A stretch of DNA of 64,000 nt from Aminiphilus circumscriptus DSM 16581 (lineage in GTDB: Bacteria; Synergistota; Synergistia; Synergistales; Aminiphilaceae), in the NCBI RefSeq assembly GCF_000526375.1, contig NZ_JAFY01000001.1:62001-126000 (forward strand), given 5' to 3'. The notes under the pieces were generated by a model. That model had not been told where the DNA came from. It ran no database searches and saw nothing but the letters and a program-made list of their open reading frames with translations. The stretch's first letter is position 1. Each line of letters opens with the position of its first letter. The translations under genes were made by a program, and so were the position numbers. Below are positions 45,632 through 52,237 of the stretch, piece by piece.

Positions 45632-45734
45632 GTCCCCCATCCTTTCTTGCCGGTCCGCCTCCTGTCTCTTTCCCGTTCCCCGTCTTCTGTCTCCGGTCCT
45701 TTCCTCCGCATTGTCACCCCTTCTGGCGCTTCTT

Positions 45735-46150
<416 letters not shown>

Positions 46151-46163
46151 GGAATTCCCCGCG

Positions 46164-46964
46164 TCAGGGGAGCGCTCTCGAATCGCCCACGTTGAGCTGC
46201 GCCGATCCCTTGAACATCATCGCCGTGAAGGGGCTCTTCACGGGAAGATCCGCGAGGGTGGCGATGATGGGCCACTGCAGGGGATGTTCCGCCGCGGTGA
46301 GTTTGGTCCAGGTGCAGTGTCCCTCTCCCGACCAGGCGCGGGCCATGCGCGCCTCCTGGGGATAGAGCGTGGCGTGGCTCAGGGAGGCGCCTCCTCTGCC
46401 GAGGTTGGGCAGATAGCGCCAGCCGAAATAGTTCATCTTGCTCCGGGAATTCGCCGCGGCGACCTCGCTCTCGGAAAGTGCCCGGGTACGGGTCATCTCC
46501 AGCGTGAGGAACGTGCGGCTCTCGTAGCTCGCGGCGGTGAACCAGCGATCCTCCACGCGGCGCTCGCAGGCGATGTCCGCGAAGAGCTTCGGCATGCCGT
46601 CCTCCTCGCGCCCTCCGATGATGGGGCAGGCCTTGTTCTCCCAGATGACGAACACGTACTCCCCGACGAGCCCCTCGCCGTTTCCGAGGTAGCGCACCGG
46701 CGTGGTGACCTGGATGAGCCGGTACTCACCGCCGGCCATCCACGCCACGTCCCGGGCGTTCGAGAACTGAACGTTCACCAGGGGCTCCAGCAGCTCGAAA
46801 TCCTCGGGAAGAATCGGGAGCAGCGCCTCCGGATCCGTCCGAAACTGAAGGCTGATGCCCGTCATGTCCCCGTAGACGGTGCGCACGGGATAGAAGGCAT
46901 GCCCGGAAAAATGCACCGGCATGGCGTAAACGTACTCGTCCCTGAGCCTGAAGGTGCCTCTCAT
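46164..46964 (-). CDS. Acetoacetate decarboxylase-family protein
   Basis: A 266-residue protein of the ADC family. K126 in GMPKLFADI occupies the Schiff-base lysine position, and E80 in GGEYRLIQVTTPVRY matches the conserved acidic site. HATLYPQEARMARAWSGEG and PLQWPIIATLADLPV complete the fold. Real ADC converts acetoacetate to acetone; many relatives act on other substrates (aldolase or dehydratase activity), so the exact reaction is open. The ATG at 46964 follows GGAGGCGG. It is alone on this strand; the SDR gene lies beyond the pyrimidine tract in the same direction. Confidence 0.9.
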   Translation of the reverse strand: MRGTFRLRDEYVYAMPVHFSGHAFYPVRTVYGDMTGISLQFRTDPEALLPILPEDFELLEPLVNVQFSNARDVAWMAGGEYRLIQVTTPVRYLGNGEGLVGEYVFVIWENKACPIIGGREEDGMPKLFADIACERRVEDRWFTAASYESRTFLTLEMTRTRALSESEVAAANSRSKMNYFGWRYLPNLGRGGASLSHATLYPQEARMARAWSGEGHCTWTKLTAAEHPLQWPIIATLADLPVKSPFTAMMFKGSAQLNVGDSRALP

Positions 46965-47401: not shown

Positions 47402-47490
47402 CATCTCTGAATAAGGCTGCGTCAGTCCCGAAAGTGCTTCGCAGAGCCTGATGCGACCCGAGTCAAGGGAAAGCGAAAGGCCTTTATTCT
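47402..47490 (+). repeat. Family-1 dispersed element (copy 5)
   Basis: First of three tandem head-to-tail copies. Starts ATCTCTGAATAAGGCTGCG; ends CCTTTATTCT. Confidence 0.88.
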
Positions 47491-47591
47491 GGAAATCTCT
47501 GAATAAGGCTGCGTCAGCCCCGCAGGGCGCTTCGCAGAGCCTGATGCGACCCGAGTCAAGGGAAAGCGAAAGGTCTTTATTCAGGGCTTCC
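47491..47591 (+). repeat. Family-1 dispersed element (copy 6)
   Basis: Second tandem copy and close to consensus. Starts GGAAATCTCTGAATAAGG; ends TTTATTCAGGGCTTCC. Confidence 0.9.
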
Positions 47592-47595
47592 TCAG

Positions 47596-47695
47596 AGCTT
47601 CCTCTAAATAAGGCTGCGTCAGCCCCGAACGTGCTTCGCAGAGTCTGATGTGACCCGAGTCAAGGGAAAGCGAACGGTCTTCTTCAGCGCTTCCC
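47596..47695 (+). repeat. Family-1 dispersed element (copy 7)
   Basis: Third tandem copy. CTCTAAATAAGG replaces CTCTGAATAAGG at one end and CTTCTTCAGCGCTTCCC closes the other. Confidence 0.85.
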
Positions 47696-47973: not shown

Positions 47974-48192
47974 ATGGCGAGTTTTCTTTCCGAGGGCAGC
48001 CGGCTGATTCTCAAGGTGCAGACCGGCAGCGACGAGTGGGGCAAGCCGAAGAGCAAGACCCTCTCCTGGCGGGGCATCGACCCCGAGGCCTCCGCGGACG
48101 ACGTAGACGCCGTGGCGAACGCCCTGGCCGGGCTCTGTCTCTATCCCCGGCTGGAGGTGCAGAAGCAGGACACGGACCTGGTGACGGCCTGA
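47974..48192 (+). CDS. DUF1659 family protein
   Basis: A 72-residue protein matching DUF1659: SRLILKVQTGSDEWGKPKSK followed by a region ending ALAGLCLYPRLEVQKQDTDL. The family is small, soluble and of unknown function, and typically sits next to DUF2922 and YvrJ genes, as here. The ATG at 47974 lies after AAAGGAGGTGA, one of the strongest ribosome sites in the window. It is the first gene of the four-gene series, with about 350 bp to DUF2922. Confidence 0.85.
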   Translation: MASFLSEGSRLILKVQTGSDEWGKPKSKTLSWRGIDPEASADDVDAVANALAGLCLYPRLEVQKQDTDLVTA

Positions 48193-48548
48193 CGGATCTT
48201 CCCGTGAAGGGCCTCGCCGAAACTCCGCCGCCGTTGCCCGCTTTTTTCGCGGACGGCTCCGGGCGTTTCCGGTCCTTCTGAAATGCTTCCGTGTTTCCTT
48301 CCGAAGGCATTTCAATGTTCCGGGAGAGGCTCCGGGATGTGCCCCGCTCCAGTGCGGTTTCCAGGCTGCGGGCAGGGGGAGCGGAAACCTCGGCGCGGTC
48401 CTGCGCCGCATCGCCGAGGAACGGCGGAGGGCAGGAAAGGGAAAGAAGGAAAGAAAGAAGGAAGGAAGGAAGGAAGGAAGGAACGAGCAAGCCAAGAAAC
48501 GAACGAAGCTGACGAACGAAGCTGACGAACGAAAGGAGGTGACATTCC
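48193..48548. other. Gap between DUF1659 and DUF2922 with purine microsatellite
   Basis: 355 bp without a gene. It contains a GAAGGAAGG/AAAGAAAG run at about 48420-48482 and two copies of GCTGACGAACGAA just before the DUF2922 ribosome site. Confidence 0.6.
48420..48482 (+). repeat. Purine microsatellite (GGAA/GAAA)
   Basis: A GGAAAGAAGGAAAGAAAG run passing into GGAAGGAAGG units, like the tract at about 4215-4290. Confidence 0.85.
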
Positions 48549-48758
48549 ATGGAAACCAGAACGTTGCGCATGATCTTCGGCCTGTCCTCGGGAAAGGAGT
48601 GGGTTCTTTCCCTGTCCAATCCCCGGACGGATCTCACCGAGGGAGACGTGACGGCGGTCATGCAGGCCATCATCGACAGTGACCTGTTTCTCGTCGGGCC
48701 GGACATGATCGTCCGTGCCGAGATCGTGTCCCGGAACGTCACGGAAGTGGTGGCCTAG
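48549..48758 (+). CDS. DUF2922 family protein
   Basis: A 69-residue protein matching DUF2922: TLRMIFGLSSGKEWVLSLSN, PRTDLTEGDVTAVMQAIIDS, then a tail with IVRAEIVSRNVTEVV. The function is unknown; the family is small and beta-rich with one helix. AAAGGAGGTGA precedes the ATG at ten bases. It follows DUF1659, and both have near-identical strong ribosome sites, which suggests high expression and matched amounts of the two products. Confidence 0.87.
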   Translation: METRTLRMIFGLSSGKEWVLSLSNPRTDLTEGDVTAVMQAIIDSDLFLVGPDMIVRAEIVSRNVTEVVA

Positions 48759-48916
48759 CGGCCTGGAATCGAGCGGCCCGGAGGAGAGAGGCGTCGATGG
48801 GTTCGGGGCAATTGGCCCGGCGCCAAGGGGTTAGGGCTTAGAGTTCCTTGGTTTGTGTCGAGGGACCTGAGGTCGATGGTTTTGAGTCGATGAACGGGGA
48901 GTCCTGGCTGTTTTTA

Positions 48917-49008
48917 GGGAAACCCTGATCACCCAGAAATCGCCCTCTCTCGCTTTTCGAGTGCATCGCGTTTTTCCGGAATCGGCACGGCATGTTTCAG
49001 AGGCTCCT
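48917..49008 (+). repeat. Family-2 dispersed element (copy 1)
   Basis: About 92 bp. Starts GGGAAACCCTGATCA; ends GTTTCAGAGGCTCC. The core has CGCCCTCTCTCG and CATCGCGTTTTTCCG. It lies directly beside a family-1 element. Confidence 0.85.
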
Positions 49009-49011
49009 TAG

Positions 49012-49112
49012 GGAAGCTCTGAATAAAGGCCTTGCGCTTTTCCTTGACTCGGGTCGCGTCAGGCTCTGCGAGGCGCCCCGCAGGGCTGACGCAGCCTTAT
49101 TCAGAGGCTCCT
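49012..49112 (-). repeat. Family-1 dispersed element (copy 8)
   Basis: Full-length reverse copy, GGAAGCTCTGAATAAAGG to TTATTCAGAGGCTCC, three bases from the family-2 element. Confidence 0.9.
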
Positions 49113-49406
49113 CATATCTGAAGGCCAAAGATCTCAATGCGTTTCCTTTGAAGCGTGTGCGGGGCGGCGGGTGCTCGTGCGGCGCCAGGCATCGCCGCCC
49201 CGTCTATCTATGCGGGCCGGAGAGAAGGCCTGGAGAAAAGGTTCATGGAAGGCTCATCTGGAAGGCGTATGAAAAAAGTCCATGGAAAAGGCCCACAGGG
49301 ATAGCGTGTGGAAAAGGACCACAGGAATAGCGTCAGGAAAGACTTGCAGAAAAGACTTGTAAGAAAGCCCCGGGAACAGGGGGAGACAAGGAGGGAGGAG
49401 GCAGAC

Positions 49407-49652
49407 ATGACGGAACTTTTGCAACAGTTCGTCCAGCACGGATTTTCCGTGGTGGTGGCGGCCTATCTGTTGGTGCGCATGGAGAGCCGCCTCGACGCGC
49501 TCACCGATGCGATCCGCCGTCTGCAGGCGGTGCTCGAGACGGGGATGTTTCGCAGTGACGAGACGGCTTCGGCGGCGGTGCCCCGTGCGGGGGCCACGCT
49601 CTTTCGGGGCGAAGCCCGTTCGGGAAGGTCGGCGGGGAGGCAAAGCGCATGA
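49407..49652 (+). CDS. YvrJ family small membrane protein
   Basis: An 81-residue protein. The first 40 residues match YvrJ (MTELLQQFVQHGFSVVVAAY, LLVRMESRLDALTDAIRRLQ): one short membrane helix at about 12-24 followed by an amphipathic coil, a holin-like layout. The C-terminal 40 residues are a basic, Ala-rich extension beyond the usual ~50-residue family length. GGAGGGAGGAGG precedes the ATG. The stop overlaps the start of the glucosaminidase gene (ATGA), so the two are translated together. The family's function is not established. Confidence 0.82.
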   Translation: MTELLQQFVQHGFSVVVAAYLLVRMESRLDALTDAIRRLQAVLETGMFRSDETASAAVPRAGATLFRGEARSGRSAGRQSA

Positions 49653-50641
49653 CCTTCTCGGGCGGCTTCGTCGGCGTGCCTGTGGAAGCGCGGTCGCTTT
49701 TTCGCATGTCTCAGCAACGGGACCAGCGGAACAGTCAGAAAGGGCAGCACGAAAAGAACGCCGGTCTCGGTGTCGCGTCTCTCGTCGCCTCAGCCCGCGG
49801 GCACCTCGCTCCGGTAACGGGAGTGATGGTGACGAAGGCGACGACAACGGGAGCAACGGCGTCGGCAACGAAAGCGGCGGCGAAGGCGGTGGAAGATGCG
49901 GAAACGAAAGCGGAAACGGAGGCTGTGGTGAAGGCCCCGAGAGAGACGGTAACGAAAGCAACGGCGTCGGCAAAGACGGCGGGAGATTCGGGAACGGATC
50001 CCCGAAAGAGCGCGGAAGCGCTCTCTCGGAGAGACGACTCTCCGGAGGAGATGCCCCGCCTGGTCTTCGAGGCGGTGCGCGTCGGCAACGGCGCCCGTAC
50101 CCTTCACCGGGGGGCGCCGCTCAACGCCTTCGGCGCGGCGGTGCAGACCTGGCACGAGACCGGGGGATTCCGTTCCGCGGCGATGCGCCGCACCTGGAAT
50201 CTGGCGGGTATCAAATGCACCCGGAGCTGGGTGGCCGAGGGCGGTCTCTGTTGGAGCAGCGCCACAAAGGAATGGAGTGGCGGGGCGGAGCGGCGGGTGG
50301 AGGCGGCGTTCCGGCACTACGGATCGCTGGAGCATTTTCTGGCGGATTACTCCCGGCTCCTCGCCACGTGCTTTCCTCTTGCGGCGCGCAACGCGGACTG
50401 CTGCTGGCTCTTCTTTGCGGGGCTCTCCTGGGGCGTACCCCGCAAGGACGGCACGCGCCTCCGGTGGGCCACGGACCCAAACTATAGCGCGTCGCTCGTG
50501 CGGGCGGCCCTGATACTCGCGCCCTCCCTGCTCGGCGGCGCCTGGAAGGACATTCTGCACTGCTCCTTTTCCGCGGCCCGGAGCCGGGGCTTTCCCGACG
50601 CCGCCCTGGAGGCGCTGATCCGAGCCGCTCTCGCCGCATGA
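49649..50641 (+). CDS. GH73-type N-acetylglucosaminidase domain protein
   Basis: A 330-residue probable peptidoglycan hydrolase. Residues about 138-260 fit the glucosaminidase (GH73) domain. The catalytic Glu is E170 in QTWHETGGFRS, followed by TWNLAGIKC and a glycine/aromatic region, then RRVEAAFRHYGSLEHFLADY. The N-terminal 135 residues are low complexity, with Ala/Thr/Lys units (TKATTTGATASATKAAAKA) and no clear signal peptide, so release may need another route such as the YvrJ membrane protein. It overlaps the YvrJ stop by four bases. The order DUF1659-DUF2922-YvrJ-hydrolase suggests a joint envelope or lysis function. Confidence 0.8.
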   Translation: MTFSGGFVGVPVEARSLFRMSQQRDQRNSQKGQHEKNAGLGVASLVASARGHLAPVTGVMVTKATTTGATASATKAAAKAVEDAETKAETEAVVKAPRETVTKATASAKTAGDSGTDPRKSAEALSRRDDSPEEMPRLVFEAVRVGNGARTLHRGAPLNAFGAAVQTWHETGGFRSAAMRRTWNLAGIKCTRSWVAEGGLCWSSATKEWSGGAERRVEAAFRHYGSLEHFLADYSRLLATCFPLAARNADCCWLFFAGLSWGVPRKDGTRLRWATDPNYSASLVRAALILAPSLLGGAWKDILHCSFSAARSRGFPDAALEALIRAALAA

Positions 50642-51952: not shown

Positions 51953-51979
51953 TGTACACGCTCCTCTCGTAAGATTTTT

Positions 51980-52080
51980 GAAAGCCCTGAATAAAGACCT
52001 TTCGCTTTTCCCTTGACTCGGGTCGCATCAGGCTCTGCGAGGCGCCATGCGGGGCTGACGTAGCCTTATTCAGAGATTCC
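51980..52080 (-). repeat. Family-1 dispersed element (copy 9)
   Basis: Full-length reverse copy starting 28 bp upstream of the binding-protein gene. Ends GAAAGCCCTGAATAAAG and TTATTCAGAGATTCC. Confidence 0.9.
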
Positions 52081-52237
52081 TTTTGCATGATGCCCTTGTC
52101 GTCGCGTCAACTCGCGCCTTGCCTCGCCCGACTTTGCCTCGGGTCATCTCGTCTCATCTCATCTCATCTTGGATAAAGCCATGCCGTTTCTCGTTCCGCT
52201 CTGTTTCGTGCTTCTTCGTCTCGCCTTGTTCTATCTT

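Follow-up and report, generated by a model that had tools for sequence, protein, structure and literature searches.

The window analysed here is a stretch of 64,000 nucleotides from Aminiphilus circumscriptus DSM 16581, a member of the phylum Synergistota (NZ_JAFY01000001.1, positions 62,001 to 126,000), and our subject is a set of four genes on its plus strand, at positions 47974-50641, which encode three small proteins of the families DUF1659, DUF2922 and YvrJ and a peptidoglycan hydrolase. A sequence-only reading of the window had taken these genes for a candidate envelope or lysis system. Here we report that the four-gene set recurs well beyond this genome as a conserved cassette, in which the type of wall hydrolase is exchanged and which in many relatives has a sigma factor and promoter of its own.

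The genes for DUF1659 (72 amino acids; 47974-48192; PF07872, 62 bits against a cut-off of 24.1, E = 4.8e-17) and DUF2922 (69 amino acids; 48549-48758; PF11148, 63 bits against 25.5, 2.5e-17) are followed by that for YvrJ (81 amino acids; 49407-49652; PF12841, 49.8 bits against 29.5, 2.4e-13), a holin-like protein with one short hydrophobic segment and a probable coil, and by that for a GH73-type peptidoglycan hydrolase of 330 amino acids (49649-50641). All four proteins score above their Pfam cut-offs, the hydrolase only just (Glucosaminidase, PF01832, 30.6 bits against 30.2, 5.8e-7), so that its assignment is marginal. Residues 1-130 of the hydrolase are of low complexity and the catalytic part comes after them; there E170, which we take to be the catalytic glutamate of GH73, aligns with E32 of the GH73 lysin encoded on a viral contig (L226, below; 27% identity over 120 columns). 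No hydrophobic segment was found in the first 60 residues of the hydrolase (best 18-residue Kyte–Doolittle mean, 1.07), in agreement with the earlier remark that it has no clear signal peptide; the best such mean in YvrJ is 1.44.

The stop codon of YvrJ and the start codon of the hydrolase overlap as ATGA at 49649-49652, and AAAGGAGGTGA stands shortly 5' of the ATG of both DUF genes. These are the near-identical, strong ribosome sites to which the sequence-only reading had pointed, and they are consistent with DUF1659 and DUF2922 being made as abundant, paired products. The first three genes are separated by gaps of 356 and 648 bases containing simple and interspersed repeats; the DUF2922–YvrJ gap is short in most relatives, unlike the 648-base spacer of the window (48759-49406, assigned to neither strand). 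The window set is not a tight operon, and a common transcript is putative. The interspersed repeat, roughly 50-95 nt long, occurs in both orientations, with copies up to 96-97% complementary, in intergenic gaps at 45910-45977, 47405-47681, 49007-49112 and 51976-52081, the third of which falls inside the cassette, between DUF2922 and YvrJ.

Among 185 genomes of the Synergistota, 87 had a YvrJ match, at 97 places. The window and 80 of these places, fetched with their flanks, form a set of 81 loci, which represent 78 genomes and 11 families, the 16 places outside it being mostly weaker matches; genes in the set were counted with hidden Markov models (HMMs) grown on those same loci. DUF2922 was found in 78 of the 81 loci and DUF1659 in 76, both upstream of YvrJ and on the same strand, and the gene order is constant over the 11 families. 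YvrJ lies near a contig end in four of the five loci that lack DUF1659, the fifth (L095) being a genuine absence. In whole genomes, DUF2922 was present in 130 of the 185, that is, in 85 of the 87 having YvrJ versus 45 of the 98 without it (Fisher P = 1.7e-16, kinship ignored), and YvrJ is usually a single, chromosomal-type copy per genome. The claim that the three small families occur together is thus borne out, in this phylum as in the Bacillota (below).

We computed dN/dS against the copy in the same genus (L047), with small substitution counts. DUF1659 gave 0, the YvrJ core (residues 1-45) 0.07 and the GH73 part of the hydrolase 0.14; higher values were obtained for residues 1-130 of the hydrolase (0.66) and the YvrJ tail (0.89). 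These ratios point to purifying selection on DUF1659, on residues 1-45 of YvrJ and within the catalytic region of the hydrolase, with little on the two remaining segments.

Exchangeable lysins and the phage parallel

A wall hydrolase is encoded in 77 of the 81 loci, so the idea that YvrJ and a hydrolase might be neighbours in this genome only is refuted. By HMM count the hydrolases are M15 peptidases in 70 loci, GH108 muramidases in five and GH73 enzymes in two, the last being the window and L047; in 23 of the loci the gene after YvrJ was also read individually. One example each of the first two types, checked against Pfam, gave Peptidase_M15_3 at 1.1e-20 and Glyco_hydro_108 at 3.3e-27, the latter with an additional peptidoglycan-binding domain. 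The M15 proteins comprise little beyond their domain, and only two of 69 have a hydrophobic segment (mean at least 1.6) near the start. The hydrolases are of three unrelated kinds, whose type changes and whose position hardly does: GH73 and GH108 both occur within the window's own family (f1), a sigma gene followed by a GH108 gene was found in L049, and family f11 includes four loci with the M15 gene placed between DUF2922 and YvrJ. Phage lysis genes usually look like this, with unrelated lysins replacing one another next to a small membrane protein.

YvrJ itself has relatives in such a setting. The window protein matches phrog_4898, annotated 'holin', at E = 8.6e-4, and a scan of IMG/VR with a YvrJ alignment gave nine viral loci, in six of which a YvrJ-family gene lies directly 5' of a lysin gene. 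The lysins are GH73 with SH3_5 (L226, 1.1e-38), M15_3 (L229, 6.6e-15), CHAP (L230), ELLD/Amidase_5 (L231), GH24 (L233) and GH25 (L234); L226 additionally encodes a phi29-type packaging protein (Podovirus_Gp16, 7.6e-20). The contig of L228 stops just past YvrJ, and L227 and L232 have no lysin beside it. Ten YvrJ proteins of viral or prophage-like origin were compared with Pfam: L226-L230 score above the YvrJ cut-off and the other five below it. Eight of ten queries, the YvrJ of a Geobacillus plasmid among them, matched phrog_4898 at E < 1e-3 (L229 reached 0.052); the PHROG result for L045, whose coordinates are probably wrong, was disregarded. The suggestion that YvrJ resembles small holins thus gains from these matches and from its viral lysin neighbours, and fails as regards membership of the BhlA holin family (below).

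Neither the window YvrJ nor a composed YvrJ query found a match among 50,697 phage records; a viral YvrJ used as query matches 14. In Microviridae phi-CA82 (HQ264138.1, 4030-4215) and other phage records a YvrJ/phrog_4898-like protein is unannotated or labelled 'hypothetical', and this protein of Microviridae and other small phages is a candidate lysis gene. A further YvrJ (L129) was found on a contig that binning assigns to a Woesearchaeota archaeon, with contamination of the bin as the likely cause. A holin role is nowhere proposed in the literature passages naming YvrJ, DUF1659 or DUF2922 that we consulted, and among the papers listed by a search on Synergistetes and holins none is on such a cassette, as judged by title.

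Outside the phylum, YvrJ was found in 108 of 299 Bacilli, 60 of 293 Clostridia and 78 plasmid records. We took the best-scoring loci, 29 of Bacilli and 30 of Clostridia, and looked about 1.5 kb to either side of them. DUF1659, DUF2922 and YvrJ were all three present in 20 and 28, respectively, and a sigma gene lay nearby in 10 and 14. In the Clostridia the sigma gene always accompanies the trio, mostly just upstream of DUF1659. Seven plasmid regions were read: YvrJ is followed by a VanY-type M15 gene in two (directly, on one Geobacillus and one Parageobacillus plasmid) and by a GH24 lysozyme gene in one, an amidase lies about 1-2 kb off in two, and no lysin is in view in two. The GH24 gene stands shortly after YvrJ on a Paenibacillus plasmid; the order sigma–YvrJ–HTH_16 was also read on a Paenibacillus plasmid. 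In a Shouchella, YvrJ and an Amidase_2 gene share an ATGA overlap.

Those neighbours of the cassette that could be recognised in the window encode a short-chain dehydrogenase, an acetoacetate decarboxylase and a solute-binding protein, and so serve metabolism or transport. As the sequence-only reading had observed, no phage structural genes were found beside it; two further neighbouring open reading frames have no Pfam match. Between the dehydrogenase and decarboxylase genes lies a purine/pyrimidine-biased tract with 13 overlapping repeat copies (45727-46170). No known RNA family reaches its gathering score in the window.

The sigma factor, its putative promoter and the DUF1659/DUF2922 pair

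Several features could not be seen from the window alone: the usual M15 type of the hydrolase, the sigma factor and dedicated promoter of many relatives, and the fact that the DUF pair is also kept by itself. In 56 of the 81 loci the cassette encodes a sigma-70 family factor (TIGR02937, 50.3-62.7 bits against 42.9 in all five proteins scanned, including one encoded on a Bacillota plasmid). Regions upstream of DUF1659 were obtained from 75 loci, 50 with the sigma gene and 25 without, and in the sigma-bearing loci they share a putative promoter, TTTGTA-N18-CACTCTTATA, that heads the whole set. The motif was found by eye and scored at spacings of 17-23 with a threshold of at least 13 of 16. It reached the threshold in 24 of the 50 sigma-bearing loci, always at spacing 18, versus none of the 25 others (Fisher P = 9e-6), and in 9 of 1,500 shuffled sequences. 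Canonical sigma-70 sites (11 or 12 of 12) were found in none of the 50 versus six of the 25 (P = 9e-4). These P values are only a guide, because the motif was taken from the loci on which it is scored, and these are related to one another. The 24 motif loci are spread over five families (f2, f5, f8, f9 and f10), and sigma-less relatives in f5, f8 and f10 are without the motif.

A search of 18 whole genomes for the motif, allowing up to two mismatches, found it at 23 places. The 13 matches with no more than one mismatch are all cassette promoters, as is one of the ten with two; the reversed pattern gave 17 matches in the same genomes (their mismatches unlisted), and the other nine loose matches therefore do not exceed chance. 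With near-exact matches confined to cassettes, the sigma factor seems to be dedicated to a single promoter. Neither the motif nor a cassette-type sigma gene was found in the window genome, whose best match to the sigma alignment is 7.7e-6 versus 1.7e-63 in a positive genome; the window copy is therefore a variant lacking both switch and switch site.

We considered whether the sigma factors belong with TcdR and UviA (group 5), and rejected this: the SRQ marker in region 4.2 of TcdR-type factors (passages in PMC4031146) is absent from the six cassette proteins aligned, which read SQQ in three, TQQ in two and SRA in one, and the -35-like element is TTTGTA, not TTTACA. Two side observations concern the sigma genes. 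In ten loci of Clostridia and Bacilli (L274-L277, L280-L283, L290 and L291) a GGCCGGCC- or GACCGGTCC-like palindrome, noticed by eye, is followed by CTC...GAGG just before the sigma gene and looks like an operator or RNA element. One Synergistota genome has two more cassette-type sigma genes (G111:C1:2309542-2312189), with stops within parts of the matches; a second, weak YvrJ match lies close by, which gives the impression of an extra cassette in decay.

For the DUF pair we examined 11 loci in genomes that have DUF2922 but match YvrJ weakly or not at all (a twelfth, L271, was chosen for its sigma genes and contains no DUF2922). DUF1659 adjoins DUF2922 in all 11. By HMM, eight are without YvrJ, lysin or adjacent sigma gene; of the others, L268 has a sigma gene, L270 has a YvrJ match and L269 ends too early. 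Some genera thus keep the pair alone, and it therefore does not need the release module proposed below everywhere; a unit that survives alone fits a product better than a lysis regulator. The Thermotoga maritima control genome, in which DUF2922 is present and YvrJ was not found, is another sign that DUF2922 lives without YvrJ. Structure models built from shallow alignments (11 and 13 sequences) predict the order beta-beta-alpha-beta for both DUF1659 (mean pLDDT 82.3) and DUF2922 (86.2). No convincing solved-structure relative was found by sequence, and Foldseek gave no match at E ≤ 0.001 for either model. No DUF1659 or DUF2922 relative was found in the 50,697 phage records with three queries, and none was confirmed among 42 IMG/VR pattern matches.

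A possible route for protein release

We favour, with evenly balanced confidence, a chromosomal protein-release cassette in which YvrJ and the lysin would act as a holin–lysin pair, the sigma factor as a one-operon switch and the DUF pair, probably, as the output. YvrJ, as a small holin-like protein with a single helix, would give a wall hydrolase made in the cytoplasm access to the peptidoglycan; the hydrolase, having no signal peptide (GH73 here, M15 or GH108 elsewhere), would pass by way of YvrJ, and the DUF1659/DUF2922 pair would be the product that is released or made ready. In the usual form the sigma factor encoded by the cassette would read the cassette's own promoter only, so that the cassette would amplify its own activation, perhaps in only some of the cells of a population. 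The gene set and its order, the exchange of lysins, the parallels in phages and the link between promoter and sigma gene are read from the sequences; hole formation, lysin export, self-activation and the DUF pair as cargo are inferred. The role given to the DUF pair is the weakest step. The original view of an envelope or lysis cassette is partly supported: the pairing with a lysin and the likeness to holins stand, and the usual hydrolase proves to be M15 rather than GH73.

Loci made up of a sigma factor, a holin, an endolysin and an unsignalled product are known for clostridial toxins and for the bacteriocin BCN5 (passages in PMC9527704). The BCN5 locus of Clostridium perfringens, with the sigma factor UviA, the BhlA-family holin UviB and an amidase, resembles the cassette in its private sigma-70 family factor, small single-helix holin-like protein, endolysin and product without a signal peptide, and in having plasmid and chromosomal forms (also from passages in PMC9527704). 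It differs in that no relation of YvrJ to BhlA was found, that DUF1659/DUF2922 and not a bacteriocin stand in the product position, and that the cassette is conserved through a phylum with an exchangeable lysin type. The TcdR–TcdE toxin release loci of clostridia share the logic of sigma factor, holin and endolysin (parts of PMC9527704 and PMC4885068), whereas the cassette has no large toxin and a -35-like TTTGTA where TcdR-type factors have TTTACA (parts of PMC4031146). In Bacillus subtilis a sigma factor likewise controls yvrJ, yet SigO–RsoA is a split factor (parts of PMC8103513) and the cassette-type sigma is a single protein matching region 2 and partly region 4. Phi29-like and other small phages have a YvrJ-family gene followed directly by GH73, M15_3, GH24 or GH25, but DUF1659/DUF2922 and a sigma factor were not recognised beside it. 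By analogy, the cassette would work like the clostridial toxin and BCN5 systems, yet on the tests made it falls outside the BhlA family and the TcdR/UviA sigma group. Described Type 10 secretion systems belong to Gram-negative pathogens and use holins other than YvrJ. They are similar in that a holin-like gene and a wall hydrolase are used by the cell itself for release, in their case of chitinases or toxins.

Several results weigh against protein release. The strongest is that a lysin lay nearby in only two of the 29 Bacilli and none of the 30 Clostridia, as searched with a small HMM panel from which several lysin types were missing; four of the 81 Synergistota loci (L040, L043, L075 and L102) are also without one. 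Membership of YvrJ in the BhlA/UviB holin family (PF10960) was not supported, at an hhalign probability of 1.8% with a thin, two-sequence alignment on the BhlA side, and YvrJ is only modestly hydrophobic (the best windows of 81 open frames have a median of 1.58). The switch is missing from the window copy, 26 of the 50 sigma-bearing loci fall under the motif threshold, and the motif derives from the very loci scored, in related genomes that are not independent. As for the supposed product, most of the loci sampled for the pair alone have none of the release genes; DUF1659 and DUF2922 are not sequence relatives (hhalign probability 2.8%), despite their common strand–helix order; and the recurring fold matches, to phi29 p6 and p56, T7 Gp2 and PurS, are weak. 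The best for DUF1659 (phi29 p6, 8pw2: Z 5.3, rmsd 2.5, 60 aligned) and for DUF2922 (PurS, 2cuw: Z 4.5, rmsd 3.1, 53 aligned) are within the range of common arrangements.

The same genes could edit the wall for a surface structure, the DUF pair forming an envelope filament, sheath or shell and YvrJ with the hydrolase opening the peptidoglycan for it. The pair is the most conserved unit, and its predicted shared fold order and strong ribosome sites would suit a structural role; it has neither signal peptides nor repetitive surface features, however, and with fold matches no better than that of DUF1659 to p6 we think this unlikely. We are similarly sceptical of a lysis or sacrifice module without specific cargo, in which firing of the sigma factor would kill the producer and the DUF pair would serve as inhibitors or timers, like antiholins. 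Holin–lysin logic and a private sigma factor fit it equally well, as does the place of the DUF genes, first in the operon and with strong ribosome sites, but the pair stands alone in eight of 11 loci and without an adjacent lysin in most Bacillota, where an inhibitor would have nothing to inhibit, and the phages searched yielded no relative of either protein.

Other explanations fare worse. That the set consists of remnant or domesticated prophage lysis genes, by chance beside two unrelated housekeeping DUFs, would accord with the co-occurrence of YvrJ and several lysin types in phages; we disfavour it as improbable, given that the order is the same in 11 families, in which the lysin is exchanged, that the trio order recurs in the Bacillota, that selection is purifying and that the shared promoter lies upstream of DUF1659, at the head of the set. 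The matches on 78 plasmid records might suggest a toxin–antitoxin or plasmid-stability module, which is very improbable for a gene set usually present as one chromosomal-type copy per genome, with a hydrolase that follows the lysin pattern; in a PADLOC defence search YvrJ reached no better than E = 0.061 and the other three proteins had no match. Members of the Synergistota are not, to our knowledge, known to form spores. With the DUF pair widespread in that phylum, a sporulation-related function is scarcely credible, even though phenotype statistics place DUF1659 in a sporulation cluster (passages in PMC2955703).

Protein release by the cassette thus stays our preferred reading, and it has a bolder form, which we consider possible with the balance of judgement against it. 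The cassette may be a release system of the bacteria's own, in which the single-operon sigma factor fires a phage-derived holin–lysin to release DUF1659/DUF2922, a pair so useful that some lineages keep only the pair. Common to two phyla and present on some plasmids, the pair would then represent a novel sort of protein or particle outside the cell. The known cases of holin-based release come chiefly from the toxins of clostridia and one bacteriocin family (passages in PMC9527704), and from certain Gram-negative pathogens. If the reading is true, the occurrence of such release throughout a phylum, without a toxin, with interchangeable lysins and with a sigma factor serving one promoter, would show phage lysis parts put to ordinary bacterial purposes, and YvrJ, DUF1659 and DUF2922 would have a first testable function, for which the sigma gene and promoter, coming and going together, offer a clean natural test.

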